A stretch of DNA of 31,615 nt from a virus, in IMG/VR virus record IMGVR_UViG_3300030333_008274, positions 1 to 31,615 of that record. The stretch is one strand, 5' to 3'. Shown here one piece after another: positions 2,674-26,143 of this stretch. Under the pieces are notes generated by a model. The model searched no databases, had not been told where the DNA came from, and worked only from the letters and a program-made list of their open reading frames with translations. Within the stretch, counting starts at the first letter, position 1, and each line of letters begins with the position of its first letter. The translations under genes were made by a program, and so were the position numbers.

Positions 2674-3807
2674 ATGGCTTATTCAGAAGTAAATAATATA
2701 GCAGGTTGCAGCATATCTGACGTTAACGGTGTAGCAAAAGATAGTATTAATTCTATTAATGGTATTACTCCAGGAACATGTGCAGCAGCTACTCGATGGG
2801 TGGCTGGCACTAACGAACAGTACGCTGGGTATGCAGCTCACAGCGACCTTACATCTTGGACCTTCTATGATAGAGTTGACGATGGTCACCCGTGTTCGTA
2901 TGATGTTGCCTATGGCAAAGATGCCAGTGGTAACGGCATTTATGTAATGAGCCAATCTTCTTCTACTAAAGAAGTGTCAGTCAGCAGCACGGATGTGACC
3001 GATGGTAACGCTTGGACACATAAGAATTTTAGTGGTTCGGGTGACTTCTATATGAATGTTGCATGGTCTAACGATGTTTGGATTACTGCTGGTATGGACG
3101 GCGATGCTTTCCGAAGCACCGATGGAGGCTCTAGTTGGTCTAAGATTGATCTTAGCGGAGTTACAGGTTACGATAGCAATGAAAACATCGAAGCATTAGC
3201 TGCCGATGGTGCTGGAAAATGGCTCATGGGGCAAGAAGATGATTTATTTTACAGTGATGATGATGGTGCTAGCTGGAGTCGCGTACATAGCTTTACCAAC
3301 ACATACGCTGTAAAGGGAATAGCTTATACAAACAACAGTTGGGTTGTCGCTTACGTTAGGACAACCGATAGTACAAAAACTTATATCAGATCAGCAGCTA
3401 GTTCTGATCTTACTACTTGGAGTAGCGAAGCCGGGGGCGGTACTTTGCAAAATCCTGATGTGATGGGCAACACTGGTGGGTTTGAACGAATTTCTATCGC
3501 CGCTGACGCTAGTGGCAGAATAGTAATATTGCCATTTAACAGACAAAAAATTGGATATGCAGATATCGATGGAACTAATACTCCTGCGAACTTTAATGTA
3601 GTAGATCTCTCAAGCACAGTGCCTTCTAACGAAGATCTGAAAGATGTAGCGACTGATGGAAGTACTTGGATTGCTTGTGGGCAAGATGGTGTTTTGCTAA
3701 AAAGCACAAATTCAGGAGTTTCATGGTCGCTTGAAGCGCAAGATATATACGATGCGAACCATGATATAATGTGCATTACAGCAGATGTATATTTACCTCT
3801 TACATAG
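2674..3807 (+). CDS. Asp-box (BNR) beta-propeller protein, putative tail adhesin 2
   Basis: 377 residues from ATG, 7 nt after the previous stop. It is paralogous to the preceding gene: the same kind of N-terminal repeat (SDVNGVAKDSINSINGI), the same WSNDVWITAG-type blade (WGNDVWVSAG in the neighbour), and the same C-terminal DVYLPL motif. Asp boxes are at about residues 148-155 (STDGGSSW), 194-201 (SDDDGASW) and 344-351 (STNSGVSW). The middle of the protein is much less similar to its neighbour than the two ends. That fits fast-evolving receptor-binding bodies on a conserved attachment region. It is the last gene of the rightward structural block and is followed directly by a bidirectional terminator. 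Function as an adhesin is inferred. Confidence 0.72.
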   Translation: MAYSEVNNIAGCSISDVNGVAKDSINSINGITPGTCAAATRWVAGTNEQYAGYAAHSDLTSWTFYDRVDDGHPCSYDVAYGKDASGNGIYVMSQSSSTKEVSVSSTDVTDGNAWTHKNFSGSGDFYMNVAWSNDVWITAGMDGDAFRSTDGGSSWSKIDLSGVTGYDSNENIEALAADGAGKWLMGQEDDLFYSDDDGASWSRVHSFTNTYAVKGIAYTNNSWVVAYVRTTDSTKTYIRSAASSDLTTWSSEAGGGTLQNPDVMGNTGGFERISIAADASGRIVILPFNRQKIGYADIDGTNTPANFNVVDLSSTVPSNEDLKDVATDGSTWIACGQDGVLLKSTNSGVSWSLEAQDIYDANHDIMCITADVYLPLT

Positions 3808-3815
3808 TAAATAAT

Positions 3816-3843
3816 AACGGGCGATGGAAAACCACCGCCCGTT
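3816..3843. terminator. Bidirectional intrinsic terminator between convergent blocks
   Basis: Inverted repeat AACGGGCGATGG / CCACCGCCCGTT with an AAAA loop and one internal A-C mismatch. An A-rich flank on the left and a T-rich flank on the right let it act in both directions. It separates the rightward virion genes from the leftward replication genes. Confidence 0.85.
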
Positions 3844-3845
3844 TA

Positions 3846-5138
3846 TTAATGTGAGTGAGAACAAGGTTGCTTTGTAAGTTTTAAAGATTCTACTTCAGCA
3901 TACATGTCCTCATTAAAGATAAGAGGTCTTGCTGCTCTACCAATGTTTAGGAATCTTTCGAAGATCAAACCATACTGAATTGGGTCGAGCCTAGTTATGT
4001 CTAGTGCGTAAGCTACTAAGCTACCAGCCGCACTACCTCTACCAGGACCTATGTATACACCTTCCTCTCTTGCCCCATTTAGGAACTCCCAGACTATCAA
4101 CATGTAGTCGGAGAAACCTATCTTCTTTATAGTCTGAAGTTCTGAATCAAGTCTCTGCCTGTAGACTTCGGGTGGCATACCTTCGAACTTCTCAAATAAT
4201 GCTTTCTTAGATACGTATTCTAACTCGTCCCAGGATGTGACTCCTTCGTCTAAATTTTTGAACTTGGGGTACCTGTTCTTTCTGTCAGAGAAATAGGAGT
4301 CAGAGTCAACCATGTCTGCTAAAGACGCAGTGTTACTTATAGACTCGTAAGGTAGCCCTTGTTCCATGGCTCTTTGCCACATCCAATCATGATTCCCTAC
4401 GTGAACATCAATGTCCCCGAAGGAGAATCTTTTCTCATCGCTTAGTACTGCATGTGTTTGCATGCATAAAGCTGCTTCGTGTAGCTGTTTGTCTAATTCG
4501 TGTGTGTAATGACAGTCGTTAGTAAGAACTAAGGGATAGTTTTTCTTTTTTGCTATTTCTAGCAGAACTTTATTGACTTTAACTTGGTCTTCCATCTCAT
4601 GTAGTTGGACTTCAACCATTAGTCTTTTCTCGAATAGAGAAGCGTGATGGTCCATCATCATTTCTGCTTCTTTTACTCTGTCGTGTAGGATTAGTTGAGA
4701 AATTCTCGACCCTAAACACGAGGTTGTTGCGCATAAGCCTTCTGTATGATCAGCTAAAATAGCATCATCGAGTCTTGGCTTGCGATACATTCCTTCCGTA
4801 TATGCTAGGGAAGATAATTTAAATAAGTTGTGTAGCCCTTTATTATTTAGAGCAATTAGAACTAGATGATAGTATGGTTCTCCAAGATCATCTACCTCTC
4901 TGACCGTTCGATCGTTTACAGTATAATAGGCTTCCATACCTATTATGGGTTTTATTCCAGCTTCCTTACATTTGTTGTGAAATCTAAAGGAGCCGCTGAC
5001 ATTACCATGATCAGTAATGGCAACGGCCCCCTGGTTTATAGACTTGACATACTCAGGTATGTTATCAACACGATTGATTCCATCAAGCAGGGAGTATTCA
5101 GTATGTAAGTGAAGATGAACAAATTGTTTGTCATTCAT
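3846..5138 (-). CDS. dnaE: DNA polymerase III alpha (DnaE-like) N-terminal fragment: PHP domain plus start of polymerase domain
   Basis: 430 residues against roughly 1,100 for a full DnaE. The PHP domain (about 1-280) keeps a full set of metal-ligand-type residues: HLHLH (H8-H12), D19, DHG (D43, H44), E69 in GMEAYY, H91, C141 in TSCLG, and D208/H210 in TNDCHY. A functional PHP 3'-5' exonuclease is therefore possible. The polymerase part begins normally with GPGRGSAAGS (364-373) and LIFERFLN, but after RAARP (405) the expected PD-x-D-x-DF catalytic motif is replaced by 25 unrelated residues and a stop. No remaining palm domain follows, because the terminator and convergent genes start at once. 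It is either a naturally split polymerase whose C-terminal half lies elsewhere or a decayed gene. Its start overlaps the upstream gene by 8 nt. Confidence 0.85.
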   Translation of the reverse strand: MNDKQFVHLHLHTEYSLLDGINRVDNIPEYVKSINQGAVAITDHGNVSGSFRFHNKCKEAGIKPIIGMEAYYTVNDRTVREVDDLGEPYYHLVLIALNNKGLHNLFKLSSLAYTEGMYRKPRLDDAILADHTEGLCATTSCLGSRISQLILHDRVKEAEMMMDHHASLFEKRLMVEVQLHEMEDQVKVNKVLLEIAKKKNYPLVLTNDCHYTHELDKQLHEAALCMQTHAVLSDEKRFSFGDIDVHVGNHDWMWQRAMEQGLPYESISNTASLADMVDSDSYFSDRKNRYPKFKNLDEGVTSWDELEYVSKKALFEKFEGMPPEVYRQRLDSELQTIKKIGFSDYMLIVWEFLNGAREEGVYIGPGRGSAAGSLVAYALDITRLDPIQYGLIFERFLNIGRAARPLIFNEDMYAEVESLKLTKQPCSHSH

Positions 5139-5382
5139 TTATCTTCCTTGTCAGACATTCTACTTGTGAGCTTGTCTCTATCCAGACACGAGCTCCACAA
5201 GATAGTGGTTTGTTTGGTCTATATATTACACGAGCAGCTTCTTTGCCGTCTTGGCCATAGATAACTGCTTCGTGACAATAGTCATTAGATTTATATGTCT
5301 TAACTGTTAGTACTGGTTCTTCCTCGTCATTTTTTCTATTGCTGCGTATCTTATGTTGGTTTACATGGATTTGTTTTCTCAT
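5131..5382 (-). CDS. Small conserved phage protein of unknown function
   Basis: 83 residues. The N-terminus MRKQIHVNQHKIRSNRKN and the C-terminal IYRPNKPLSCGARVWIET look like a small protein family I recall from phages and some bacteria, with no known function. Basic at the N-terminus, one conserved-looking SCGARVW block, no membrane segment. It is translationally coupled on both sides: its start overlaps the end of the zinc-binding gene upstream by 4 nt, and its end overlaps the dnaE start by 8 nt. It is therefore co-expressed with the polymerase fragment. Confidence 0.75.
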   Translation of the reverse strand: MRKQIHVNQHKIRSNRKNDEEEPVLTVKTYKSNDYCHEAVIYGQDGKEAARVIYRPNKPLSCGARVWIETSSQVECLTRKINE

Positions 5383-5825
5383 ATTAGTTCGTCGTTTTCT
5401 ATAGGTTTATTATAGCAGGATTTACAACTATAGCCAGTATATCTTACTGGCCATGGAGATTTACCCATACCTTCTGCAGTTTGCAGACACTCTATTGAAA
5501 ACCATTCTTTGCAATCAAAACATTGACCATGACTTTTTATTTTTGTTTCTCTATTGTTGGGAAGTTTACTAAATAACGCTTCTCCAGTTTCACTGCAGTA
5601 AGTTATTAGCTCTCCCTCCTCCATTTTACTCAGCATAAAGCTTATGTAATCTAACCCCTCTTTCAGCTCATGAAGCTGCGGTGAGGTCGGAGTCTGATTC
5701 TTTATCGTCTTGCATATCTTTACTACTTTCTTCACTTGGTTGTCTTGCACCTGAAACTTGGTAGCAAGCTTTTCGTATTTCAGAATATACTCCTGGGTCT
5801 TCGATAAGATATTGTCTAGCTCCAA
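5379..5825 (-). CDS. Zinc-binding hypothetical protein overlapping recA
   Basis: 148 residues from a TTG start that has a strong AGGAGG Shine-Dalgarno sequence 5 nt upstream. The C-terminal half has paired cysteines, C102-x2-C105 and C134-x2-C137 with C113 between, which suggests a zinc ribbon. The first 68 residues are helical and Lys-rich and lie out of frame inside the last 158 nt of recA. If this overlap is not translated, the alternative start is the ATG at 5621 (MLSKMEEGE), just past the recA stop. I favour TTG because of the good ribosome-binding site, but that sequence also encodes Gly-Gly-Lys of RecA and could be chance. Function unknown. Confidence 0.6.
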   Translation of the reverse strand: MELDNILSKTQEYILKYEKLATKFQVQDNQVKKVVKICKTIKNQTPTSPQLHELKEGLDYISFMLSKMEEGELITYCSETGEALFSKLPNNRETKIKSHGQCFDCKEWFSIECLQTAEGMGKSPWPVRYTGYSCKSCYNKPIENDELI

Positions 5826-6753
5826 TTTTTCCTCCTGAACACATTGTGATCTCTTCTTTACCTGGCAAAGCCAGCCTTACAGAAGGACCTGCGTATCGAA
5901 TTATTCCTAGATCTTTCGCATAAATTAATAGATCGGAATATGGGTCAATGCCTTTTCCACAAATAAACTGGAACTCTGCTGCTTGATTAAGAGCAGGGGC
6001 TAGTTTGTTCTTCTTTACTTTTACTTTCATATCAAGCACACCTGGTGCTGATGGAGAAGGCTTGGATGTAACTCTAAGTCGTAGTGATGCATAATAAGGT
6101 AATGCATTTCCACCACTTGTGGTTTCTGGATTGCCATACATTACACCAATTTTCATTCTGATTTGGTTAATAAATATATAGCAAACCTCATTATCTACAC
6201 ATATTTTTGAAAGACTTCTTAGAGACTTAGACATGATTCTGGGCAAGTCTCCTACGCCCATTTCATTCATTTGTCTTTTAGTTTCTTTCTCTGATTGTGC
6301 AGCATCTACTGAGTCAAATACTACCAGTCCTACCGCTCCAGACTTACCCAAGTCTACTGCTACTTGAAGAGCTTCTTCAGCAGTGTCTGGGTAACAGAAT
6401 ATAACTTTGTCTGGGTCGATTCCCATAGAACGAATAAGATCCAAGCCAGTTGTTCTTTCGAGATCAATGAAAACTGGTGGTCTAGTGTAGCCGTTCTGTT
6501 TAACAAATTCGCCCATGAGTTGCAGTGCTAACGAAGTTTTTCCTGCAGACTCGGGGCCAAATATTTCTACGATTCTATCCGTTGGAAAGCCGCCAATACC
6601 AAGGACACAGTCCAAGGCAAGGCTACCGGTACTTACTGATTGACATTCTTGTATTTTTGGTCCCAGAGATAATACATCTTTGCCAAACTTTTTAGTCAAA
6701 GCTTTAGCAATGGCATCGACTTCTGGGATGCCTGTTATCTTTTTTGTAGCCAT
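5668..6753 (-). CDS. recA: RecA recombinase
   Basis: 361 residues, close to the usual bacterial RecA length, and of bacterial type rather than T4 UvsX type. Walker A is GPESAGKT (66-73), Walker B is LVVFDSVD (143-150), NQIR is at 196-199, and the L2 DNA-binding loop follows the canonical pattern (GNPETTSGGNALPYYASLRL, 207-226). Glu99 in the FIDLER block matches the catalytic Glu region (FIDAEHA in E. coli). It polymerises on ssDNA and carries out ATP-dependent strand exchange, here for phage recombination-dependent replication and repair. The acidic C-terminal tail (SSKDMQDDKESDSD) is typical of RecA. The last 158 nt overlap the next gene out of frame. Confidence 0.97.
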   Translation of the reverse strand: MATKKITGIPEVDAIAKALTKKFGKDVLSLGPKIQECQSVSTGSLALDCVLGIGGFPTDRIVEIFGPESAGKTSLALQLMGEFVKQNGYTRPPVFIDLERTTGLDLIRSMGIDPDKVIFCYPDTAEEALQVAVDLGKSGAVGLVVFDSVDAAQSEKETKRQMNEMGVGDLPRIMSKSLRSLSKICVDNEVCYIFINQIRMKIGVMYGNPETTSGGNALPYYASLRLRVTSKPSPSAPGVLDMKVKVKKNKLAPALNQAAEFQFICGKGIDPYSDLLIYAKDLGIIRYAGPSVRLALPGKEEITMCSGGKIGARQYLIEDPGVYSEIRKACYQVSGARQPSEESSKDMQDDKESDSDLTAAS

Positions 6754-6774
6754 TTCTTTCCTTTTTGTTTTAGC

Positions 6775-7119
6775 TTATTTTTCTACCTCTTCAGGGTAGA
6801 TTAGTTGTTCGCCATCGTCAAATGTAATGATGGTTTTGTTTGCGGGGTGTGGTTTCACATGCACTCTTAAGAAATCTTCCATTGAGTCGAAGATAGCGAA
6901 CGATCCTCTTGGAGGTGGATACAACCAGTGGACAACTGCTTGTCCTGTGGCGTGCATCGTACCCTCAATAACAATACCCTCTCCAGATACCCCTGTCTCA
7001 TCTGCTCTTCTGCAGACTGTAAAGCTTCTGATGCCTTGAGGGGCTAGCTTTGCAGGTGGTTTGGGTTTCAAATCTGGTTCTGATATTTCTTCTTGATTAT
7101 TTTCTTCATTATTGGACAT
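6775..7119 (-). CDS. Conserved phage protein of unknown function
   Basis: 114 residues. A charged, Pro-rich N-terminal tail (about 1-28) is followed by a compact domain with the blocks RSFTVCRRADETGVSG, GTMHATGQAVVHWLYPP and FDSMEDFLRVHVKPHPANKT. This recalls a small family I have seen in phages and plasmids with the pattern RRxxDETGVSGxG...W...FDSxxDFLxxH. Predicted cytosolic and beta-rich. It sits between the nuclease and recA with 2 and 21 nt gaps, which suggests co-transcription with recA. No catalytic motif is evident. Confidence 0.7.
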   Translation of the reverse strand: MSNNEENNQEEISEPDLKPKPPAKLAPQGIRSFTVCRRADETGVSGEGIVIEGTMHATGQAVVHWLYPPPRGSFAIFDSMEDFLRVHVKPHPANKTIITFDDGEQLIYPEEVEK

Positions 7120-14508: not shown

Positions 14509-14958
14509 TTAATCCCATCCTATTATCTTGGGTGCTGCAGACATAAATAGTCTGAGCAGTACTGTGTATTCTCCCCCAGTAATGGGGACTGATACAAATT
14601 TATTATTGTCTTGTGACTTGTTCTTTTCTCCTAGCCTCAACATGAAGGTGCCAGAGTATTTACCCTCTCCCGGAGTTATCTCCAGGGTTTTAACTATGGG
14701 TGATTCTGGCATTTGGTGTATCAGCTTGGGAGGTGCATCGGGATTTGTAAACCAGTTACATAAATCATTCATTCCCAGTGCAAATGTAATTTTATCTGTC
14801 CAGCTATATGACTTATCACCACTACCTGCTGCTACTTCTAGTAGGACAGCTCCATTTTTCTTTATTCTTCCACTCTCACCCTCTCTCGGAGGTATGATTG
14901 TGAACTGAGCAGCTCCTAGCTTTTTATATATACTAAAAACGCCTGGATATTGTCTCAT
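14509..14958 (-). CDS. Whirly-family ssDNA-binding protein
   Basis: 149 residues, about the size of the plant Whirly domain. The match runs along the whole chain: YKKLGAAQFTIIPP (11-24) at the place of the plant KGKAAL strand; GAVLLEVAAGSGDKSYSW (36-53) like GxxLLxFAPAAGxRQYDW; KITFALGMNDLC (56-67) like KQVFSLSVTEIG; TLEITPGEG (91-99); and VPITGGEYTVLL...APKIIGWD (124-149) like IPITRAEFAVL...MPYLLGWH. Whirly proteins form tetramers or 24-mers that bind ssDNA without sequence preference and aid organelle genome repair. In a phage next to RecA, SSB and PhoH, a replication or recombination ssDNA role is likely. Homology is by pattern recognition and not tested by profile search. Confidence 0.82.
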   Translation of the reverse strand: MRQYPGVFSIYKKLGAAQFTIIPPREGESGRIKKNGAVLLEVAAGSGDKSYSWTDKITFALGMNDLCNWFTNPDAPPKLIHQMPESPIVKTLEITPGEGKYSGTFMLRLGEKNKSQDNNKFVSVPITGGEYTVLLRLFMSAAPKIIGWD

Positions 14959-15215
14959 TCTTTCTCCTTATTTAACCATGTAAGTATTAATAAGCCTTGT
15001 CTAACAATGGCATTGGCGATCGTCTCGCCATTTTCTTTTATGTCGTTCATTACAATTTCCAAAATATTTTTCTCAGACACCTGTCTATCGGGCATACGCA
15101 TATCACTTATGCCAAGCTTAATAAAGACATTTGCTAATATTTCTAATTTATCTTCTAACTCTAATTCTTCTATATCTTCTAGTATAGTTTCAGTAATTCT
15201 ATCTCTATTCTTCAT
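14955..15215 (-). CDS. Small helical hypothetical protein
   Basis: 86 residues, all-helical and acidic (ITETILEDIEELELEDKLEI). Its stop overlaps the Whirly gene start by 4 nt, and an AAGGAG inside its last codons serves the Whirly gene. Its own start lies inside the end of the PhoH-like gene (11-nt overlap). Tight coupling suggests co-expression of PhoH, this protein and the Whirly protein. Function unknown. Confidence 0.62.
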   Translation of the reverse strand: MKNRDRITETILEDIEELELEDKLEILANVFIKLGISDMRMPDRQVSEKNILEIVMNDIKENGETIANAIVRQGLLILTWLNKEKE

Positions 15216-16083
15216 CCTTTCTTATTTCCATGTCTATGTCATGAATTAACTGAGGTATTCTACCTCGATATTGTTTTTTCAGCTCTATCTCGGAACTAAA
15301 GTTACATTTCTTAAAAGCATTTGAATTAACCATTTTGTACAATCCACTTTCTTCATAAGAAAACCTAGCATCTATTTGTGCAGGGTCTCCTAATATAATT
15401 AGTTTTGTACTTTCTGCAATCCTTGATACCACGGTTTTTAACTCGTGCCAATCAAGATTTTGCGCTTCGTCCAGAATAAATACAGAGTCTTCGTAATTGT
15501 TTCCTCTTGTATACTCTACTGGTACGAATTGTATCTTCTTTTTATCCTTTAGTAAAGAAATATATTTACCCTCAGAGCCTGTTAATTTTCTGAGGATAGA
15601 TTCATACGAAGCTATATGCGGTGCATATTTCTCTTGTATGTCTCCTGGTACCGGGCCGAATGTTCGGCCTCTACCTACTAGGTCTGTAGGTTTTGAGAGG
15701 TACATGGTTTTGTTATTGTCGAATAGTTCTTGGAGTGCATAAGCTAGAGCGACTGTTGTCTTTCCTGTTCCAGCTGCGCCTCTACATACGACTACTCTTA
15801 TATTGTCGTTGGTTAGCGAGTTTATAAATCCCGCTTGCCTTGCATCTCTCGATGCTATACCAAACAAACTAAAGTTTGGTGGTGTGAATACTTTTTTGAT
15901 TGTTTGTTCTTCAACCACTCTACACAAGTGATAGTCATTTTCTCCTAAGTCAGTTAGCAATATAAATGAATTAATTGCAAGATCTGTTGGTAGGTCTTGT
16001 ATGTATAATTCATTTTCGCTTGTTAAATCATTCAAATCTTCTTGTTGTACAAGGATCTTAGTTAAGGAACAATTGTTATTCAT
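15205..16083 (-). CDS. phoH: PhoH-like P-loop ATPase
   Basis: 292 residues. Walker A is GAAGTGKT (102-109), Walker B/DEAQ is VFILDEAQN (201-209), and GDPAQID follows around residue 235. KPTDLVGRGRTFG and KKQYRGR complete the PhoH pattern. The PhoH fold is a superfamily 1 helicase-like ATPase; phage copies are common in marine phages. Their role is unsettled: RNA helicase or nuclease-associated, or phosphate-stress related. The N-terminal 85 residues precede the ATPase core; I cannot confirm a PIN nuclease domain there. Confidence 0.92.
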   Translation of the reverse strand: MNNNCSLTKILVQQEDLNDLTSENELYIQDLPTDLAINSFILLTDLGENDYHLCRVVEEQTIKKVFTPPNFSLFGIASRDARQAGFINSLTNDNIRVVVCRGAAGTGKTTVALAYALQELFDNNKTMYLSKPTDLVGRGRTFGPVPGDIQEKYAPHIASYESILRKLTGSEGKYISLLKDKKKIQFVPVEYTRGNNYEDSVFILDEAQNLDWHELKTVVSRIAESTKLIILGDPAQIDARFSYEESGLYKMVNSNAFKKCNFSSEIELKKQYRGRIPQLIHDIDMEIRKDEE

Positions 16084-16480: not shown

Positions 16481-16543
16481 AAAAAAGAAGGAACTCAGAA
16501 TATTCTGAGTTCCTTCAGCAGGAACTAAGCTAAGCTTAGTTCC
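16481..16543 (-). terminator. Twin-hairpin terminator of the Ubl operon
   Basis: Two inverted repeats in series in the leftward transcript. The first (16521-16543, arms GGAACTAAGCT / AGCTTAGTTCC) includes the Ubl stop codon. The second is a perfect 30-nt palindrome (16487-16516, half-site GAAGGAACTCAGAAT) followed by a T-tract. The arms of both share GGAACT-like sequence, so alternative pairing is possible. Confidence 0.88.
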
Positions 16544-16751
16544 CTTTGACTGCGCCTGTAGCGAAGATTTCTGTAGCTCCATCAATTGAGGTAGAACCCC
16601 AAGCTTCAGGAGCTACGCCTTCACCATCAACAATAAGTTGTCGGCCATTAAGGCTGTGATCGGCTGCAAATTGAGCCAAAGTTGTACCGTCCTCTACCTG
16701 TACAGAAGAGGCACCTGGTCCTGGTACTCGGACTAGTGTTACGTATCGCAT
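16536..16751 (-). CDS. Ubiquitin-like (beta-grasp) modifier protein
   Basis: 71 residues. The layout is beta-grasp: two strands (MRYVTLVRVPG, SSVQVEDG), a helix (TTLAQFAADHSL), then GRQLIVDGEGV and a final strand DGATEIFATG, leading to an exposed C-terminus AVKGN. It resembles small bacterial and phage Ubl/MoaD-like proteins. The end is Gly70-Asn71 rather than a mature GG, so trimming of the last residue by the adjacent JAMM peptidase is a reasonable prediction. AGGA lies 6 nt before ATG inside the end of the E1-like gene, 4 nt away. Genomic coupling with E1-like, E2-like and JAMM genes is the main support for the call; the sequence alone is short. Confidence 0.75.
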   Translation of the reverse strand: MRYVTLVRVPGPGASSVQVEDGTTLAQFAADHSLNGRQLIVDGEGVAPEAWGSTSIDGATEIFATGAVKGN

Positions 16752-16755
16752 TATT

Positions 16756-17442
16756 TTATCCTAAGTTATGCGTAGTTATCTTTGGGTCCAGATTGAATAG
16801 GGTCTTCTTACTATAAGACCATTCGTTGTCTGAACGTTTACTGTTAAGCATCGCGCATATACAATGCACGGTATATGATGCAACCATAGAAACCAGCGTA
16901 GTACAAATGCGTAAATTACAAGGTCCTTCCGGCAAGTCTTTGTCGTCCATAAGACATTCAGACCAGGCATCTGTTTCTAGAACATCCATATTGTCAATAA
17001 TATTTAGTTCACCAAAATCAAAACCTAGTCTGGTTTCAAAAACTTTATTTACTTTCCAGTTCAACTTAAAAGTAGAGACTGATTCTTTTCTTGCAGACAT
17101 AGTGTCTACGGTAAGTACTAGGGGACCATCTAAAAGACTTTTGTGAGAGCTATCGAAAAAGTAATTGTGGGTTTCAACATTAATACTGGGGTTGAACCTT
17201 TGCAGCACGCTTTTAAAGGCTTCAACTTTTGGTTTGCCAACATGTTCGACATCATAAATCTGGTTTGGTAGATTATGATCTTCTACTATGTCTGCGTCCC
17301 ACACTCTAAAGTTGTGGAAGCCCATTTTTGCTGCAATCAGCCCTATGTGACTGCCTGTTGCCCCGACACCAACGATGTTTAGTGTCTGAGCATCTTCTGG
17401 TCCAAACCAGCCAGCATGTCTAAGAAAGCTTACTGATGACAT
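16756..17442 (-). CDS. ThiF/E1-like Ubl-activating enzyme
   Basis: 228 residues from the ATG at 17442, chosen because GGAG lies 6 nt upstream; an in-frame ATG 12 nt earlier has no such site. The Rossmann glycine motif GVGATG (25-30) is followed by DADIVEDHNLPNQ (49-61) and VGKPKVEAF, the standard ThiF/MoeB/E1 order. ThiF enzymes adenylate the Ubl C-terminal glycine. The usual Arg of NLNRQ is Asn60 here, as I recall for some phage ThiF-like branches. Candidate transfer cysteines are C163, C175 and C180. No CxxC zinc pair is evident. It overlaps the JAMM gene by 23 nt and is followed by the Ubl gene. Confidence 0.9.
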   Translation of the reverse strand: MSSVSFLRHAGWFGPEDAQTLNIVGVGATGSHIGLIAAKMGFHNFRVWDADIVEDHNLPNQIYDVEHVGKPKVEAFKSVLQRFNPSINVETHNYFFDSSHKSLLDGPLVLTVDTMSARKESVSTFKLNWKVNKVFETRLGFDFGELNIIDNMDVLETDAWSECLMDDKDLPEGPCNLRICTTLVSMVASYTVHCICAMLNSKRSDNEWSYSKKTLFNLDPKITTHNLG

Positions 17443-18619
17443 CTTCTTCTCCATTTAGTAAAGATATAGTTTCAAACCCTCCGCCCAACGAAGACGCGTA
17501 AGCGTCTAACCAAAAGTCAATTAGCTGCTCAGCGTACTCTGGACTAAGGTTGATGTCGCTAAGTTTGATTGCTATTTCATAAGCTACTGACAGTAATTTT
17601 GCGTCTACATTCTGATCTATGAGAGATTCAAATAAATCAAACTGTGCGGAAAGATTATCTTCTTGGTCGCATTGTATAACTGAGTCTTCAAACTCACGTA
17701 TTTCGCTTTCTGTTCCATTTAGTAGAGACACATAGATATTGAACTCTTCCTTAGTCATAACGTCCGACAGAAAAGAAACTAGCTTCTCTGCTTCCGTGTG
17801 ACATGAGTTTGTTATAGCTATGAGTTCACCTAGTTCTTGTATGTCTTCAAGGTAAGACTGATTTATTTCTTTACTTGAACTTGATACGGCCTGTACTTTT
17901 CTTTTTTTCTTTTTGTGGTTTTTTTTACCACCAGCGTAACTGGTGCTGGTGGAGCTGTGTGTCATTGCACCGTAGCCGCCATGCCAATCAAGCAAGCCTC
18001 CGCTTCTTGCGGGGACTTTTCTTTTGCTACCTACCCAAGCTGTAGCAACTGGCTTTTTCTTGAATTTAGCTTTTGCCTGAGCACTTATGTGTTCAAAGTC
18101 TGGCGTTTCAATAAGCAGTGGTACGTTTTCACACAGGATACCAGTTTCTGGATCCCAGATTCTTGAATAGTAATTGTCGCTCTTGTTAAAGATAAACATG
18201 ACTTGAGGCAAATCTACTTTGGCATCTTTTGCATTTTTGACAAGCTCTTGAAATTGTTTGTTGTCTTGTCCGCTTGGATTGACACCCATGTTGTGATGGG
18301 AATGACACCAGACAGTCAAGTTTCCTAAAATTTCATTTGCTTTTTCATTTCCGTGTTCTTCAACAAGTTCTCTATAAAATTTAACCATCATTTCAGGATC
18401 TGACTCGACTTCTGCTCCCGAACAATATTGCTCAGGAATATACATCTCGTACATCCTGTAGATGGTGTTGGCTCCTTCTTGAATTCTTTCTAGTCTGTGA
18501 AACCATTGAGCTTCTTTTGGAGCTATGTCTACGATATGTCGTATTGCAGATAAGTCTTCATACGAAATTTGTATATAGACGTTCTGATTGAGAATACGAA
18601 AGCCACCATTTGCTTTCAT
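17420..18619 (-). CDS. JAMM/JAB (Mov34/MPN) metallopeptidase with extended C-terminus
   Basis: 399 residues. The JAMM zinc motif is complete: HSH-x7-S-x2-D at H106, H108, S116, D119 (CHSHHNMGVNPSGQD), with E36 as the likely general base. JAMM proteins cut isopeptide or C-terminal peptide bonds of ubiquitin-like proteins, so maturing the Ubl or removing it from targets is expected. Residues 190-260 are basic and disordered (GGKKNHKKKKRKV), and 265-399 form an acidic helical tail not seen in minimal JABs, perhaps for target or virion binding. AAGGAAA precedes ATG. A strong hairpin without a U-tract separates it from the E2-like gene upstream. Confidence 0.92.
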   Translation of the reverse strand: MKANGGFRILNQNVYIQISYEDLSAIRHIVDIAPKEAQWFHRLERIQEGANTIYRMYEMYIPEQYCSGAEVESDPEMMVKFYRELVEEHGNEKANEILGNLTVWCHSHHNMGVNPSGQDNKQFQELVKNAKDAKVDLPQVMFIFNKSDNYYSRIWDPETGILCENVPLLIETPDFEHISAQAKAKFKKKPVATAWVGSKRKVPARSGGLLDWHGGYGAMTHSSTSTSYAGGKKNHKKKKRKVQAVSSSSKEINQSYLEDIQELGELIAITNSCHTEAEKLVSFLSDVMTKEEFNIYVSLLNGTESEIREFEDSVIQCDQEDNLSAQFDLFESLIDQNVDAKLLSVAYEIAIKLSDINLSPEYAEQLIDFWLDAYASSLGGGFETISLLNGEEDVISKLS

Positions 18620-18635
18620 TTTATTTCCTTTTGTT

Positions 18636-18659
18636 TAGATGGGGGCAAGCCCCCATCTA
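18636..18659 (-). other. Strong intercistronic hairpin without a U-tract
   Basis: Perfect 11-bp inverted repeat TAGATGGGGGC / GCCCCCATCTA with a CUUG-type loop in the leftward transcript, directly between the E2-like stop and the JAMM gene. The following leftward sequence is A-rich (AAACAAAAGG), so it is a poor intrinsic terminator. It may block 3' exonucleases or set different mRNA levels inside the operon. Confidence 0.75.
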
Positions 18660-18662
18660 TAT

Positions 18663-21416
18663 TTATTGATTGTTTGTAAGAGTTGCGTATGACACGTAGT
18701 TTGGTACACCTGCTGAGCGTAGTTCTTGGTTTTCATCCAGATTTTCTACTTGCTCTTCAGAAGTTGGAGAAGGTTCTCCTACTTCCAGTTCAGCTGGGTC
18801 TACAGGTCTTAAGGCTTCTGCCATAGCATCTAAATAGTCGTGATAGTTGTGAGTATCAATTGCTTGAATTTCCTCCACAGGGGGTTCTTCGATTATTTCT
18901 GGTTCAGGAATACTAATAAAAGTAGTTTCAAGATTAAGAGTTTCGTTTTCTTCGATCATGTTTGCTAGATCTTCTGCGATATTTTCCATACCTTCCTCTG
19001 TTGTGAGTGTGGTTTCTTCAGGATCGACTTCTTCAAGCTCGCCATCTAGATTGACTTGAGAAAGTTTAGGGAATTTATTGTAATTTCTACCCCACTGATC
19101 TGAAGAGTTTGCTGAAGTTACCCATCCCATTGCGCCGAATATTGCAGTTTTTAAGTCTGATTCTTCATAAGCCTTGTACAAGGTAGGTGAAGCTTCACCT
19201 AAGCAAGCGCTTCCATAGTAATCGTATAGCTTTGAGAAATCTTCCCAATTACTTGTATAGTAAGTTGAATAGTTTGCATGTGGATGTACCCAATATCTTG
19301 AACCATTTTTATCTAGACCAAAACAAGCATCTGTTGATGCTAAGGCTATGTACATGGCGGGGCTTAGAACTCGCCACCCGTTGTCGTGGTAGCTGGATCT
19401 AGTTGGCGTGCCAAACGCTATCTTTACCCTGTAAGGACCGCCTACCACTTTCTTGCAATCTTCACCTTTTTGACCGTAGTCAACTCTAATTATTACTGGC
19501 TTTGTTGTATGAAAACTCACTTCATATAGCTTGGGTATGAAATCGTCTTTGACTGCTGTATAGCCCGAGTCATAAGCTTTGCTTTCTATGAACTTTATCT
19601 TTTCAGAATCTTCTTCTTTGTAAATTGATCTTTTAAGCCTAGCCATCAGTGCAATTCTTGGGTCATCTTTAATAGATATGATTGCATCTTCTTGGAAGGC
19701 ATCTTCTCGAGTTTTGCCATCCCCCGTATTCCAAAAGTTTTCTTCGCTTGTGCGTTTATTAAAATCGTCATGTATGAGATGTGCCATTGCTGGTATGACA
19801 TAAGTTACATCGTCGATTATGATTCCCGATTTAGCTAAATTCTCAATAAAGTTTGGAATTTCAAGAGCTGTAGAATCATCTAGTAAAGATTCGATGGTTT
19901 TGTCGTTTTGTTTTTCAAGCTCTTCTATAACTTTATCAAGTTCTACAAGAGCTGGTTCGACACCCTCTACTTTCTTTTGAGCTTTTTCTTTTTCAGCAGT
20001 TAGTTTGGCAATTTCTTCTTTGAAATTAACTATGTACTCTTCGTATTGCTTAATGCGACTTTCGTTACTTTCAATCATATTGGTATTGTTGGCAACAGTT
20101 CCCCTGCTTTGTGAAATTGTTTTCTCAATACTTTTCTTGTTTTCTAAAGCTTGATTATACTCCGCAACATTAGAGTTGTTTGAAATCTCTGTATAATACT
20201 GTAGGTGCTTGAGGTGATTATCTTCAACTGTGTTTTCGTCTGAAGTAAAACTTTGATACTCCATATCGACGCTTTCAATATCCGTAAAAACTTCTTTAAG
20301 TCCATCCCAGTAGGTCATGTTGCGACCAAACTTTTCCCTAACCATTTTATAGTATTGTTCAGGGTTGGTGAACATCAATCCACCACGGTCAAACATATTT
20401 TTAAATAGTTGCGGAAAGAAATCTCTTGCTCGCTTGTATTTAAACACTTGCTCTATTGGTACTGTGACCATCATGTTTATAATTTTTGCTTTTTCCCAGG
20501 TAAGATTCTCTTGATTTAGAATCGTGTAATGGGCCGCATACAAAAATATATTTTTTTTATTATATAAATGCGAAATTCGCGATTGCTTTTTATCGTATTT
20601 AACCTTGCCTCCGCCACCTCTATATAGTGAGGTTAATTCAATTGCGGAAACAGAACCTGGTGTTTCGGAAAGTAGAGTTTTCCAAGTTAAGTCGTTTTGA
20701 GCAATATCGTTACCATCGGCAAAAGATATATCGCCAATTACATCTGCGTTATAAGAATTTCCTTTCCACATTGCAAATTTGTCAGTTCTGGCGTAAGTAC
20801 TTTGTCTTTTGCGTATTTGATTTCCTACAGAGCCAATAGTTGGTTGCAGTGTTAAAGATGTTAAATCTACGCAAGATCCAAAATGATCTATAATGTTCTT
20901 AGGAAGCTTAGAGTAGTAAACCGTACCATCTTCTTCGGTATATTTATTCATTTCGGATACATATACTGCATTCTCTATAGTCTCTGCAGTAAGTCTTGCG
21001 CGGTTTCTACTATATGTATTTGACATACGTTGTGTACGTGCATGTTCCAGATCTAGCTTGTATATTAGAAAAGTCTTTTCAGAATTGGGAGTTCTAATAG
21101 TCCAATCCTCAATATCTAATTGCTCAACCATAGCTTGTGGTCTGTCTTCTCCTGTATCTGACCAAGCGTAATGATAGCTTCTATTTTGATTTTCTTTATA
21201 CCAACTAACAAAATTCATAGCCATAAATTTGTTAAGGTCGCTTGATTTTCTATCAATCCTGTTGTTTACTTCTGCTTGTTGCCAGCCTTCACTCAAAGTA
21301 TCAACATAGTCGTCTTGACTTTCAGGCATTTCGTGATTGTAGTTTCTTACAGAGTAATAATGGTCACGACCACTATTGGCAAAAGCTAACATGTATTTTG
21401 GTAGTATTTTTATCAT
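18663..21416 (-). CDS. Large multidomain protein with E2-like (UBC-fold) domain
   Basis: 917 residues. About 1-400 is an unrecognised, aromatic-rich region; 420-515 is a coiled coil (EEIAKLTAEKEKAQKKVEG). About 620-785 resembles an E2: strands PYRVKIAFGT and MYIALAS, then HPH (711-713) where E2s have HPN, then YYGSACLGEAS with C738 where E2s have the active-site ICL, then helices ending VTSANSSDQWGRNY. The last 130 residues are acidic and Pro-rich with short helices. With Ubl, E1-like and JAMM genes in the same operon, an E2 role for C738 is a strong inference. A plain structural protein remains possible for the N-terminal part. It follows the zinc-ribbon gene by 9 nt. Confidence 0.75.
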   Translation of the reverse strand: MIKILPKYMLAFANSGRDHYYSVRNYNHEMPESQDDYVDTLSEGWQQAEVNNRIDRKSSDLNKFMAMNFVSWYKENQNRSYHYAWSDTGEDRPQAMVEQLDIEDWTIRTPNSEKTFLIYKLDLEHARTQRMSNTYSRNRARLTAETIENAVYVSEMNKYTEEDGTVYYSKLPKNIIDHFGSCVDLTSLTLQPTIGSVGNQIRKRQSTYARTDKFAMWKGNSYNADVIGDISFADGNDIAQNDLTWKTLLSETPGSVSAIELTSLYRGGGGKVKYDKKQSRISHLYNKKNIFLYAAHYTILNQENLTWEKAKIINMMVTVPIEQVFKYKRARDFFPQLFKNMFDRGGLMFTNPEQYYKMVREKFGRNMTYWDGLKEVFTDIESVDMEYQSFTSDENTVEDNHLKHLQYYTEISNNSNVAEYNQALENKKSIEKTISQSRGTVANNTNMIESNESRIKQYEEYIVNFKEEIAKLTAEKEKAQKKVEGVEPALVELDKVIEELEKQNDKTIESLLDDSTALEIPNFIENLAKSGIIIDDVTYVIPAMAHLIHDDFNKRTSEENFWNTGDGKTREDAFQEDAIISIKDDPRIALMARLKRSIYKEEDSEKIKFIESKAYDSGYTAVKDDFIPKLYEVSFHTTKPVIIRVDYGQKGEDCKKVVGGPYRVKIAFGTPTRSSYHDNGWRVLSPAMYIALASTDACFGLDKNGSRYWVHPHANYSTYYTSNWEDFSKLYDYYGSACLGEASPTLYKAYEESDLKTAIFGAMGWVTSANSSDQWGRNYNKFPKLSQVNLDGELEEVDPEETTLTTEEGMENIAEDLANMIEENETLNLETTFISIPEPEIIEEPPVEEIQAIDTHNYHDYLDAMAEALRPVDPAELEVGEPSPTSEEQVENLDENQELRSAGVPNYVSYATLTNNQ

Positions 21417-21425
21417 AGTGATCTC

Positions 21426-21656
21426 TCATTCCCCTTTCGGGATTTTTATTAAGTTGTAAAGAGTAGCAATGAGCTGTTTGGATTTTTCTTCAAACACTTC
21501 ATCCGACTCCATTGCTATTGGTTTGTTTTGGCCTGTGTAAGGCAAAGCTAGAGAGCAGCATTGACTGCATCTAAAGTCGTTTACATCTACTATATCGCCC
21601 TCTTCTATGAGCTCTGTATGGCCGCACTCGTCTACGTTGAGACAGATAAGTTTCAT
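21426..21656 (-). CDS. Small zinc-ribbon protein, first gene of the Ubl operon
   Basis: 76 residues from ATG at 21656 (MKLICLNVDECGH); a TTG 12 nt upstream is the alternative. GGAAG lies about 6 nt before ATG. Cysteines C5 and C11 (ICLNVDECGH) and C30-x2-C33-C34 (FRCSQCC) form a likely zinc ribbon. The second half is a charged helix. Its position at the head of the Ubl operon, 9 nt before the E2-like gene, suggests a partner, but zinc ribbons are also common in unrelated phage small proteins. An E3-like role would be speculation. Confidence 0.65.
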   Translation of the reverse strand: MKLICLNVDECGHTELIEEGDIVDVNDFRCSQCCSLALPYTGQNKPIAMESDEVFEEKSKQLIATLYNLIKIPKGE

Positions 21657-21736: not shown

Positions 21737-22411
21737 ATGAGTAAAATAAGTTTGTTTTTGATGTGCTCGCTAATGGCGTTTACGCCTAGCTGGAGCAATA
21801 CCAATACAGATGATTCAAACCTTGAAGTTCGAAAATCTGTCCCTGAAAAGGTCCTTCAAAACAGCGTTTGGCTAGGGCCAGAGTGGCTGTTTGGTTCAGG
21901 AGTAGGTACAGGCATAGCAGTCAAAATTGGCGATAGAAAAGCCATATTGAGTGCCGAGCATGTAGCTGCCGCAATGTATCCATTCGGTATAAATGTTTGT
22001 TCATTTGGTTACGATTGCGTAAGCGATGATGGTACATTTATTCTTGATTCGGCCAATGGTTTGGACGATGATTGGGCAATTTATTTCGTGGATGATTTTC
22101 CAGAAAAAGTAAAGCCTGCTTCTATTGCCAAAAAAGATCTCTCTGTTGGAGATGAAGTTTGGTCAGTAGGTATGGCGTGGGGGGATAGCCCAATGGTAGT
22201 TCCCGGTACAATAGCATGGGTTCACGAAGTAGGTGGTATCAAAATGTATACGGTGAACGGTTATTGTGTGCCCGGATTTAGCGGGGGTGGTGTATTTAAC
22301 AAAAAGGGAGAGTTAGTTGGTGTCAGTGTCGCTATAACGGTTAGCGAGATGGGACCACAAGAGAACTATGCAATTGTGATCCCAATCTCGCAGATACCGT
22401 TACTTAATTAA
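21737..22411 (+). CDS. Secreted trypsin-like serine protease
   Basis: 224 residues. A Sec-type signal peptide (MSKISLFLMCSLMAFTPSWS, cleavage near residue 20) is followed by a chymotrypsin-fold protease. The catalytic triad is H75 (LSAEHVA), D112 (DDDWAIY) and S182 (PGFSGGG). Three cysteines (88, 94, 177) could include a disulfide, which fits export. No PDZ domain. It is a lone + strand gene between leftward operons, with its own promoter region, so it looks like cargo (a moron). It may act in the periplasm or cell surface. Whether it processes virion proteins, attacks host defences or excludes other phages cannot be told. The stop is inside a palindrome shared with the convergent gene. Confidence 0.85.
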   Translation: MSKISLFLMCSLMAFTPSWSNTNTDDSNLEVRKSVPEKVLQNSVWLGPEWLFGSGVGTGIAVKIGDRKAILSAEHVAAAMYPFGINVCSFGYDCVSDDGTFILDSANGLDDDWAIYFVDDFPEKVKPASIAKKDLSVGDEVWSVGMAWGDSPMVVPGTIAWVHEVGGIKMYTVNGYCVPGFSGGGVFNKKGELVGVSVAITVSEMGPQENYAIVIPISQIPLLN

Positions 22412-23513: not shown

Positions 23514-25298
23514 TCAGCCTCCTGAAAAGCCAACCCTCCCTTTATTGAGTGTGTCAGCCAAGATATTTGATACATCATCGGCGGTTATTTCTACGCATTG
23601 TTCATCATGAACGAGTATTCTAACTGCTGCTTTTCTTAAAAGCTTTTGAATTGTTCGTTTTATATCTCTGACGCCCGCCTGCATACAAATTCGCGCAAGC
23701 GAATCTTCAGTAAAGCTGATGTTGAAATCTTCTAGAGAGAAATCCTTTGTTACCTGTGGTATTAAAAACCTTTCAAGAATTTCTCTTCTTTCTTCTTTGT
23801 TGTATTGTCTGAATGTTATTATTTCAAATCTGTCTTTTAGGGCTGGAGGGATATTCTCTTCATAGTTGGCGGTACAAATAAACATAACCTTTGACAGATC
23901 TATTGGTGTTTCCAAGTATCTGTCAACGAATTCATTATTTTGTTCGGGATCCAGAAGCTCCAAAAGAGCTGCTGTAGGATTGCCTCTAGTTGAGTCCAGT
24001 TTATCTACCTCGTCTAAAAGAATTAACGGATCATATGTTTGGCAGTTTTTCAGACCAGAAATTATTCTTCCTGGTCTTGAAGCCACATATGTTCTTCTGT
24101 GTCCCCTTATTTCTGCTTCATCACCCATGCCGCCCAAAGCTATCTTTATTATTTTTCGATTAGTAGCTTTTGCTATAGATTTTGCAATACTGGTTTTACC
24201 AGTACCGGGAGGTCCTATAAAGCATATGACAGAGCCTCTACTTCCTTCTGAAAGTTTTTCAATTGTCATATGCTCAAGTATACATTCTTTAACTTGGTCC
24301 AAGCCGTAGTGGCTTTCATTAAGTATATTGATGAATTTTTTTAAATCGGGTTCTTCGTAAGAAAATTTTCCCCAAGGTAGCCCTTCCAACCAACCAAGAT
24401 ATTCTTTGACTGTTTGATATTCCAAAGAAGATGGTGGAAGCTCTTTAAGCCTTGTTCTTTCTTGTTGAATTTTTTCTTTTATTTCTGAAGGTAAATTTTT
24501 GGGTATTGGTTTTTGTTCAGAATCTTCTTCTCTCGACAAACTTTGAGATAAACTAAGAAGCAGCTTTTTAGCTTTTTCTGGATCAATTTTATCGGGTGTA
24601 TTATCTAGTGGGATAAAGACTCTTTTTGTTTTGAGTGATTCGCTTGGCGATCTGAGCTTAGTGAGCATTATAAACAGATTGCGTATAACGAATGTCACTC
24701 TGTCCAAGTTGCTTTTGTATTGTAGATACTCAAGTCTGTCTTCGCATTCTAATGGAAGGTCGTTGACGAGTATATTGGCAACTTTTATAAGATTCTTGGT
24801 GTTTTTAACTCGACGTTTCAAGCTTGATGAGAATATATTTTCGTTTTCTACAATATAAGAAATGAGCAAAGAAAGATCAGCTATAAGCTCTTCTTCTCCA
24901 GGAAGTATTTTATCCTGTATTTTGTTATAAGGAACATAATACTTGCTATTTTCTTTTAAATGTAAGTCCTTTATATTGGTTCTGAATAGAACTTTACATT
25001 TTACTAAAGTATCGAAATCACGAGTTTTTTTAGTAATCAACATTGCCACTACACCTATTGGTTCAGTAGCGTTGATTTTTTCTTCTTCGGTTGCACATAG
25101 CTCAAGAGCTATCGATCCTTCATTGGATATTGCAATAGCAAAGAAATCGTCACTTATTCCTGGCCTAAGCTCCACAACAGCTGTTTCAAATTTCTGTGCA
25201 GCTTCATGAGTTAGACTGAAACTAAAGATATTGTTTGGTATTGGTATACCTTCTTCTTTTGATAATATTGTTAAGGGTAAATTTTGCACGATAAGCAC
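23514..25298 (-). CDS. Lon-type AAA+ ATPase lacking the protease domain
   Basis: 594 residues versus about 780 for Lon. An N-terminal domain (1-220) and a linker are followed by a complete Lon AAA+ module: IKEKIQQERTRLKELPPSS and LGWLEGLPWG, Walker A GPPGTGKT (362-369), GGMGDEAEIRGHRRTYV, Walker B LILLDEVDK (425-433), sensor 1 in CTANY and the sensor 2 region GVRDIKRTI. The protein then stops after NKGRVGFSGG, just where the Ser-Lys protease domain should begin. So the ATPase can be active but no proteolysis is expected. GTG start at 25298, or a second in-frame GTG at 25289 with better Shine-Dalgarno spacing. Its leader is structured. It could act as an unfoldase, or poison host Lon hexamers. 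Confidence 0.9.
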   Translation of the reverse strand: MLIVQNLPLTILSKEEGIPIPNNIFSFSLTHEAAQKFETAVVELRPGISDDFFAIAISNEGSIALELCATEEEKINATEPIGVVAMLITKKTRDFDTLVKCKVLFRTNIKDLHLKENSKYYVPYNKIQDKILPGEEELIADLSLLISYIVENENIFSSSLKRRVKNTKNLIKVANILVNDLPLECEDRLEYLQYKSNLDRVTFVIRNLFIMLTKLRSPSESLKTKRVFIPLDNTPDKIDPEKAKKLLLSLSQSLSREEDSEQKPIPKNLPSEIKEKIQQERTRLKELPPSSLEYQTVKEYLGWLEGLPWGKFSYEEPDLKKFINILNESHYGLDQVKECILEHMTIEKLSEGSRGSVICFIGPPGTGKTSIAKSIAKATNRKIIKIALGGMGDEAEIRGHRRTYVASRPGRIISGLKNCQTYDPLILLDEVDKLDSTRGNPTAALLELLDPEQNNEFVDRYLETPIDLSKVMFICTANYEENIPPALKDRFEIITFRQYNKEERREILERFLIPQVTKDFSLEDFNISFTEDSLARICMQAGVRDIKRTIQKLLRKAAVRILVHDEQCVEITADDVSNILADTLNKGRVGFSGG

Positions 25299-25366: not shown

Positions 25367-26143
25367 TTAAACAATAATCTTCGAGCCTTTTCTAACAGAG
25401 ACTCTGAAAGCTCTGTAGGGGCTGTATCCGTTAACGAGTTCTGTGTAGTAAGCTTTAGTGGTTGTTCCTCCTGAGGCTGTGCCGCTGGAGGATCCTGGAA
25501 AGTATGCGGTGTATCCAGCTGCTTGACTAGCCGTTACACCCTCCTCTTCGCTGCTAGAAGCAGGTTTTGCTGGAGAGCTGTAAGGAGTATAACGAGATGT
25601 ACCGTAAGCTTGGTATTCGCTTTGCTCAACAAAATCGGTCTCTTCTTCATCCCAGGAGCAGTCTGGTTCCGAACATACAGTTTCCTGAACGTGATTCACG
25701 TAGCTTTTGTATTCTGATCCTGTGGGACGAACCCCTGAATCTTCAATATCCATTTGGGATAAGTTTGTAGTGGTAGAAGTACTATACGGGGTATAGTCCA
25801 CGCCGCTACCGACACTAACGTTAAGGTCGTATGTATCCATAGATACCAGGCCATTATCAAGCTCGCTGGGAACGCTACTAGAGTCCTCCCAATTGCTGTA
25901 AGGATCAAGCTTGAGGTCTTGGTAAGAATCCCCGTCGAAGTCTCCTCGTACATAATTAACGTCTCCGGATTCTACATTGGAAATAGACCAATGACCATCT
26001 TTTAGTTCGGAAAAGATGCTACCTGCTAAAGAAACTGCACGCTCTTGAGCTTCGTCAGCATCCTGTGCATCAGAAATTACTAGGTGTTGTTTTCCTGGCG
26101 TATCAGGAACCCAGTGTAATGTTACTTTGAATTTTTTAGCCAT
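25367..26143 (-). CDS. YxxY-repeat Ser/Thr/Tyr-rich protein
   Basis: 258 residues. An N-terminal domain (1-80: FKVTLHWVPDTPGKQH, SIFSELKDGHWSI) looks folded. Residues 100-245 are low-complexity, rich in Ser, Thr, Gly, Glu and Tyr, with six copies of a Y-x-x-Y motif at 117-120, 145-148, 177-180, 185-188, 211-214 and 240-243, mostly about 28 residues apart. The C-terminus (RVSVRKGSKIIV) is basic. Possibly a virion or cell-surface-binding protein, or a substrate for modification. There is no signal peptide. It sits just upstream of the Lon-like gene in the transcription direction. Function unknown. Confidence 0.65.
   Translation of the reverse strand: MAKKFKVTLHWVPDTPGKQHLVISDAQDADEAQERAVSLAGSIFSELKDGHWSISNVESGDVNYVRGDFDGDSYQDLKLDPYSNWEDSSSVPSELDNGLVSMDTYDLNVSVGSGVDYTPYSTSTTTNLSQMDIEDSGVRPTGSEYKSYVNHVQETVCSEPDCSWDEEETDFVEQSEYQAYGTSRYTPYSSPAKPASSSEEEGVTASQAAGYTAYFPGSSSGTASGGTTTKAYYTELVNGYSPYRAFRVSVRKGSKIIV

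Follow-up and report, generated by a model that had tools for sequence, protein, structure and literature searches.

Bacterial operons that unite a ubiquitin-like protein (Ubl) with an E1, an E2 and a JAB peptidase have been described as types 6d and 6e, several of which include a small metal-binding protein (Iyer et al., 2006; PMC1779556). The anti-phage system Bil (BilABCD), as summarized in PMC11354881, has Ubl, E2, JAMM peptidase and E1 in one operon, and its JAMM peptidase exposes the Ubl C-terminus. Cap2 and Cap3 of the cyclic oligonucleotide-based anti-phage signaling system (CBASS) combine E1, E2 and JAB functions (PMC10097602), and the tail assembly proteins I and K (TAPI and TAPK) of lambda and T1 are a phage-encoded pairing of a Ubl domain and a JAB peptidase (PMC1779556). 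Bacterial Ubl pathways have been studied mainly as anti-phage defenses; in the present case the entire pathway seems to belong to phages. The case is an operon of five minus-strand genes at positions 16536-21656 of a 31,615-nucleotide stretch of viral DNA (the window), which is part of the 43,837-base IMG/VR record IMGVR_UViG_3300030333_008274. The genes encode a zinc-ribbon protein, a 917-aa protein, a JAMM peptidase, a ThiF/E1-like enzyme and a 71-aa Ubl, and so cover the same four functions as 6d and 6e.

We consider it fairly probable that the operon is a self-contained phage-encoded protein-conjugation pathway acting like ubiquitination, and that this phage family probably attaches a small protein tag to proteins of the infected cell. 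A preliminary description of this DNA had proposed a complete phage-encoded Ubl conjugation operon. The genes, their order, the Ubl fold and the motifs of the JAMM peptidase and E1 uphold that proposal; the UBC fold of the E2-like domain is the part that structural comparison did not confirm. The open reading frames (ORFs) agree with the proposal in number, strand and spacing, with a 9-nt gap between the zinc-ribbon gene and the 917-aa gene, 43 nt between the latter and the JAMM gene, an overlap of the JAMM and E1 genes of 23 nt if E1 starts at 17442, as orthologues support, or 35 nt if it starts at 17454, and 4 nt between the end of the E1 gene at 16756 and the Ubl gene. What goes beyond it are the precursor (poly-Ubl) genes, the lysine depletion of the tag and the occurrence in several phage lineages.

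The predicted tag and its putative processing and activating enzymes

When E1 and JAMM alignments served as queries, the operon turned up in 17 further records. With the window this makes 18, of which 16 including the window are non-redundant systems because two pairs, L013/L014 and L033/L034, consist of duplicates or near-duplicates here. The order zinc ribbon, E2-like protein, JAMM, E1, Ubl and PhoH is constant, so the gene order is kept in the 17 relatives; the detection gaps are L035, which gave no zinc-ribbon match, and L033, which is cut at a contig end. Between the window and L002, identity is 85% for Ubl, 82% for E1, 78% for the JAMM domain, 50% for the E2 domain and 35% for the full E2-like protein. 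The nonsynonymous rate (dN) has its lowest value in Ubl and its highest in the full E2-like protein, with Ubl and E1 slowest to diverge; the synonymous rate (dS) is near or beyond saturation, and dN/dS is indicative only.

The Ubl sequence matched no family model, and a PDB sequence search returned only a weak match to SAMP2 (E 0.37). The AlphaFold2 model from 11 aligned units is a beta-grasp fold with a predicted local distance difference test score (pLDDT) of 90.7. Its best PDB matches by Foldseek are ubiquitin, ThiS and MoaD-like proteins, with template modeling (TM) scores of 0.70-0.77 and every E-value at least 0.001, which bears out the fold proposed for this 71-residue product.

Five relatives have head-to-tail fusions of two to four Ubl units: L034, L036, L038 and L039 encode di- or tri-Ubl fusions, and L019 has, besides a mono-Ubl, a separate 383-aa gene for four Ubl units and a 94-aa extra domain. 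L035, L037 and L054 carry two or three separate Ubl genes. The 94-aa domain after the four units (L019:11912-12193) had no Pfam or PHROG match, and its layout resembles that of ubiquitin-extension proteins. All 32 Ubl units compared close with KGN, followed by a stop, by a tail (0 to about 30 residues or slightly more) or by a further unit. Gly70 is invariant in the 32 units and Asn always comes next, even where the stop directly follows. Such KGN-ended tandem units are the layout expected if a peptidase releases them at a fixed site; the invariant Asn71 may be a protease-recognition residue, or Asn71 rather than Gly70 may form the mature end. The tandem genes with conserved unit ends parallel the eukaryotic polyubiquitin genes and bear on the origin of poly-tag precursors.

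Leaving the terminal KGN aside, 2 of the 2,175 residues in the 32 units are lysines, and arginine is kept. The units are mutually related, and the count does not represent 32 independent draws. The lysine content of 14 other window proteins is 6.3-9.5%. Lysine-poor stretches have been associated with avoiding unwanted ubiquitylation (PMC10169902), and the depletion would fit a lysine-directed conjugation system that spares its own tag.

In the JAMM peptidase the E...HxH(x7)SxxD signature is complete, with E36, H106, H108, S116 and D119 present in 16 of 16 orthologues. The motif is thus intact as proposed, though the profile scores are weak (PADLOC JAB, 2.2e-5; Pfam Prok-JAB, 0.0077), and a PDB sequence search with this protein found no match. 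The gene is split in L003:6774-8008 and L018:7998-9253, where the C-terminal domain is an ORF of its own. The E1 passes the Pfam ThiF cut-off (6.7e-18), in agreement with the ThiF/E1 assignment, and its closest NCBIfam models are ThiF. In the PDB, a profile built from seven orthologues matches UBA5, ThiF, Cap2, a further ThiF-type protein (9egb/9egc) and others. The nucleotide-binding motif and the catalytic Asp and Arg (G29/G31/G34, D53, D55, D117 and R122 in the 232-aa numbering) are invariant in 16 orthologues. The candidate catalytic Cys175 aligns with a Cys of the crAss-like phage E1, and its position is presumably where the ThiF cysteine would fall. Listeria 'phage' matches to E1 (H2-H5) resemble bacterial molybdopterin-locus fragments and were set aside. 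The small protein encoded by the first gene has four cysteines in all (KLxC, DxCG, CxxC) that do not vary across the aligned orthologues, consistent with the zinc ribbon claimed for it.

The 917-residue protein and the E2 question

The region around residues 620-785 of the 917-aa protein retains HPH and CLG in all 16 orthologues, while identity elsewhere falls to 20-35%. A His motif therefore precedes the predicted catalytic Cys in each of them (HPH...CLG), and the HPH at residues 711-713 may be the counterpart of the E2 HPN motif. The tail is disordered. In the model, the predicted order of elements (strands, HPH, Cys, helices) is that of the UBC fold, which is suggestive only. HMMER searches with the E2-domain alignment against Pfam, PHROGs and PDB sequences gave nothing meaningful, and tblastn with the 917-aa protein against annotated phages gave no match. 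With the domain model as query, the viral model database BFVD returned proteins of other phages, one named crAss-like phage cr128_1, and the crAss-like phages from which that match comes carry the same kind of operon.

A link to E2 proteins is provided by two divergent phage contigs reached via E1. The L041 operon (3659-6624) encodes a 73-aa product that is SAMP2-like by a weak Pfam match, a 437-aa protein containing HPHISSDGRPCWGN, JAMM and E1, and the L042 operon (3943-6951) a 397-aa protein with HPHYSERRYCAGN, JAMM, E1 and a 94-aa small protein. Both are complete Ubl/E2-like (HPH...C)/JAMM/E1 sets with different gene orders. Their E2-like proteins carry HPHxxxxGxxC, and in L041 the His-to-Cys distance is that of the eukaryotic HPN...C motif. 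The window E2-like family matches these two proteins with a profile E-value of 1.8e-6, against 0.028 for the best of 100 column-shuffled controls. They in turn match the CBASS-type Pfam family Prok-E2_B with E-values of 0.0009-0.004, which none of 100 shuffles reached, although this link is weak. These loci contain 173 ORFs of 200 aa or more; 19 of them show the pattern HPH...C[x]G, and each of the 19 immediately precedes the JAMM gene. A pattern scan using the 917-aa protein alone was tried and dropped. Because of the profile chain via L041 and L042 and the confinement of the motif to the gene before JAMM, we name the protein E2-like; that it is an E2-like enzyme is likely but not proven.

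Most E2-like proteins of the operon's family end in an aromatic Y-x-x-Y after the acidic tail (window 18663-18740). Y-x-x-Y (YTPYS and similar) is also repeated in a 258-aa ORF at 25367-26143, and relatives have it in another small ORF as well; these proteins possibly share it as a docking motif.

Proposed pathway and its alternatives

In the pathway that we propose, the JAMM peptidase would cut the Ubl, or every unit of a poly-Ubl, near its C-terminal ...VKG-N, probably baring Gly70. E1 would adenylate this end and then hold the Ubl as a thioester, probably on Cys175, from where it would move to Cys738 of the E2-like domain. The large, fast-evolving N-terminal and coiled-coil region may pick the substrate, so that a single chain would act as both E2 and E3, and the Ubl would be joined to a substrate lysine. 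The JAMM peptidase may also strip it off again. Because the Ubl is almost lysine-free, chains are unlikely except via K69, the sole possible chain site, and single tags rather than branched chains would be formed. The tag is probably aimed at several host or phage proteins, presumably in the early or replication phase. Since the N-terminal half of the E2-like protein diverges rapidly, the substrate-selecting part may be under changing pressure, which would suit host targets better than conserved phage targets. A bolder version, which we put forward only tentatively and hold to be rather doubtful, is that several phage lineages use a complete Ubl pathway, polyubiquitin-like precursors and a lysine-free tag to mono-tag host proteins in the course of infection and so redirect or disable them, with the N-terminal region as a built-in E3 that follows the host. 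If true, this would be viral ubiquitination wholly encoded by a bacterial virus. Because the components are small, separable proteins open to reconstitution in vitro, conjugation of the phage tag and its targets are directly testable.

Several observations weigh against a conjugation pathway. The E1 lacks the arginine of the ThiF motif NLxRQ and reads NLPNQ or similar in 16 of 16 orthologues, and the Ubl has one Gly followed by the invariant Asn instead of GG. In the E2-like domain, HPH and Cys lie farther apart than in classical E2s and at a less constant distance, confidence in the model of residues 515-805 is modest (pLDDT 69), and direct comparison with Prok-E2_B was not significant, 10 of 100 shuffles being as good. 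Foldseek with the domain model found no match in the PDB, so the UBC fold rests on the profile links. Of the E2-like domain in the preliminary description, the conserved HPH...CLG motif and a profile connection were found, but not the structural UBC match for residues 620-785. This leaves room for a dedicated one-partner modification, with the 917-aa protein as substrate or scaffold of the Ubl (e.g., virion-internal or replication-associated) rather than E2, and HPH...C as a structural site or one for metal. The large size of the protein, its coiled coil and its disordered tail speak for this reading, and metal could be bound by HPH, Cys and an invariant Asp. We nevertheless consider this quite improbable, since profiles connect the protein with the HPHxxxxGxxC proteins of two further phage Ubl operons, of which one has the exact E2 spacing, and since the N-terminal part diverges fast while the motif is invariant.

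The operon might also be a sulfur-carrier module, with the Ubl as a ThiS/MoaD/CysO-like carrier on which ThiF makes the thiocarboxylate, the JAMM peptidase trimming it as Mec does CysO, and the 917-aa protein a sulfur acceptor or an unrelated enzyme. ThiS among the closest folds of the Ubl, ThiF as the closest E1 model and the presumed ThiF position of Cys175 agree with such a role. However, a carrier would give no clear reason for the near-total lysine depletion, the poly-Ubl precursors or the ever-present E2-like motif, its C-terminal GG is missing, and neither rhodanese nor thiamine or molybdopterin genes were seen adjoining the operon. Because of the tandem units, KGN ends and lysine depletion, protein conjugation with JAMM processing is favored, and sulfur transfer appears unlikely. 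Least probable is counter-defense, in which the system would poison or mimic a host Ubl defense (Bil or CBASS Cap2/3), for example by a decoy tag or by stripping host conjugates with the JAMM peptidase. Hosts do turn Ubl conjugation on phages (PMC10097602), and PADLOC E1-E2 and JAB models match the E1 and JAMM proteins, but a decoy needs less than a complete pathway with tandem tag genes, and homology to Bil or CBASS Cap proteins was not found beyond the E1 superfamily level.

Genomic setting and comparison with known systems

The operon lies, as had been proposed, in a phage replication region: the window also encodes a DNA polymerase, a UvsX-like recombinase, ribonucleotide reductase and dUTPase flanking the operon, which PhoH adjoins (Table 1). 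A head-maturation protease is encoded on the same contig outside the window. At the 3' end, where a twin-hairpin terminator had been described, both hairpins were recovered. The second (16487-16516), with 13 pairs and a T-run, is strongly terminator-like, but the first (16521-16543), which overlaps the Ubl stop, has no T-run as read from the sequence. The hairpin at 18636-18659 is possibly an RNA processing site or attenuation element.

Upstream neighbors differ among the records. A trypsin-like protease gene on the opposite strand (21737-22411, +) lies just upstream of the operon and is shared by several close relatives; its hydrophobic N-terminus could be a signal peptide. The Lon-like AAA+ protein (23514-25298) shows N-terminal and lid similarity and ends past the lid, with no protease domain among the matches listed. 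It was ruled out as a core partner, being present in 11 of 18 records only. Outside the window, an adenylosuccinate synthetase-like gene (G000:C1, about 38645-40223; L059:7646-9224) matches the PHROG '2-aminooxy adenylosuccinate synthetase' (PurZ-type). It adjoins an HD phosphohydrolase gene, and the phage may produce DNA with 2-aminoadenine (Z). The single match in a collection of bacterial genomes was a 15-kb contig binned with a Gammaproteobacteria metagenome-assembled genome, and a Ubl search in 398 genomes of one bacterial phylum found nothing beyond that contig. The phage host is uncertain because this sole bacterial match is perhaps a binned phage.

Table 1. Features of the operon and its downstream neighbors (window coordinates).
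Feature	Position	Strand	Basis or remarks
Zinc-ribbon-like small protein, 76 aa	21426..21656	-	ORF, ATG at 21656; operon's first gene; four invariant cysteines
E2-like protein, 917 aa	18663..21416	-	Variable N-terminal region; coiled coil ~400-510; E2-like domain ~628-795; acidic tail, aromatic Y-x-x-Y end
E2-like domain	19032..19535	-	Invariant GP, HPH, CLG, D, WG and F residues (16 orthologues)
HPH, residues 711-713	19278..19286	-	Invariant 16/16
Cys738 of CLGE, predicted E2 catalytic cysteine	19203..19205	-	Invariant 16/16
GC-rich hairpin, perfect 10 bp, in the 43-nt E2-like/JAMM gap	18636..18659	-	Scored terminator-like on + strand only
JAMM/JAB metallopeptidase, 399 aa, with C-terminal extension	17420..18619	-	Profile matches; invariant residues
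JAMM core HSHHNMGVNPSGQD (H106, H108, S116, D119)	18263..18304	-	Catalytic residues and E36 invariant 16/16
E1/ThiF-like adenylating enzyme, 228 aa (232 aa from start 17454)	16756..17442	-	Pfam ThiF
Cys175 (228-aa numbering), candidate E1 catalytic cysteine	16918..16920	-	Invariant 16/16; common to divergent operons
Ubl, 71 aa, C-terminus AVKGN, K69 sole lysine	16536..16751	-	AlphaFold2 beta-grasp; ubiquitin/ThiS matches; 32 units compared
Two hairpins 3' of Ubl gene	16487..16543	-	Second intrinsic-terminator-like
PhoH-like ATPase	15205..16083	-	Downstream of operon in 18/18 records
Conserved 149-aa protein	14509..14958	-	No PHROG match; linked to PhoH in 17/18 records, 18th locus stops short of it

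Among the described systems, the 6e type combines tandem Ubl proteins (two to three units) with an inactive E2 and a JAB fused to E1, and the 6d E2 has no His before its Cys (PMC1779556). Tandem Ubl as such is therefore not new, whereas the phage operon has all genes separate, HPH before the Cys and a place in a phage replication region. For the PRTRC type, to which we take the 6d operons to belong, PRTRC_ThiF scored 19.3 bits against a cut-off of 144.75, and the 917-aa protein had no Prok-E2_D match. A viral-collection contig, L043 (3809-6723), which may be a plasmid, does hold a PRTRC-like set with Prok-E2_D (1.6e-34), a PRTRC-C-like 73-aa protein and ThiF.

In Bil, as summarized in PMC11354881, BilA has two fused beta-grasp domains, BilD two adenylation domains and a Cys domain, and the Cys-Glu-His-His motif of BilB lies after its Cys. 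The phage operon differs in its HPH before the Cys, its one-domain E1 of 228 aa and its single-domain, 71-aa Ubl (or poly-Ubl), which sets it outside the Bil definition. Cap2 of CBASS is an E2-E1 fusion (PMC10097602). The E1 and E2-like genes are separate in the phage operon, and no nucleotide cyclase was recognized in it, contrary to the definition of CBASS type II. To our knowledge, Cap2 works with no dedicated Ubl gene, the cyclase itself being conjugated. TAPI and TAPK of lambda and T1 belong to a tail cluster that has no E1 or E2 (PMC1779556), unlike the full pathway with E1 and E2-like genes near replication genes found here.

CrAss-like and Flavobacterium phages (L007, L008, L009) also have a JAMM, an HSH...CxG protein and a homologous E1 in one operon. 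By hhalign the window E1 matches theirs with 1.4e-21 and the JAMM proteins match weakly (0.0009), while similarity of the Ubl and E2-like parts to their counterparts is not significant. These operons include a small protein with an N-terminus that is beta-grasp-like by eye. They differ in a shorter E2-like protein and in one Ubl-like gene whose product is C-terminally extended and contains many lysines. The operons of L007, L008, L009 and L074 are annotated 'thiamine biosynthesis protein' and 'metalloprotease', of which the thiamine-biosynthesis annotation is probably wrong; because of such annotations, phage Ubl modules may be more numerous than the databases suggest. In the open-licence literature searched, we found no description of a complete phage Ubl system. 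What appears to be new here is such a system with tandem Ubl, whose functions match those of known bacterial operons while its architecture differs from every definition tested.

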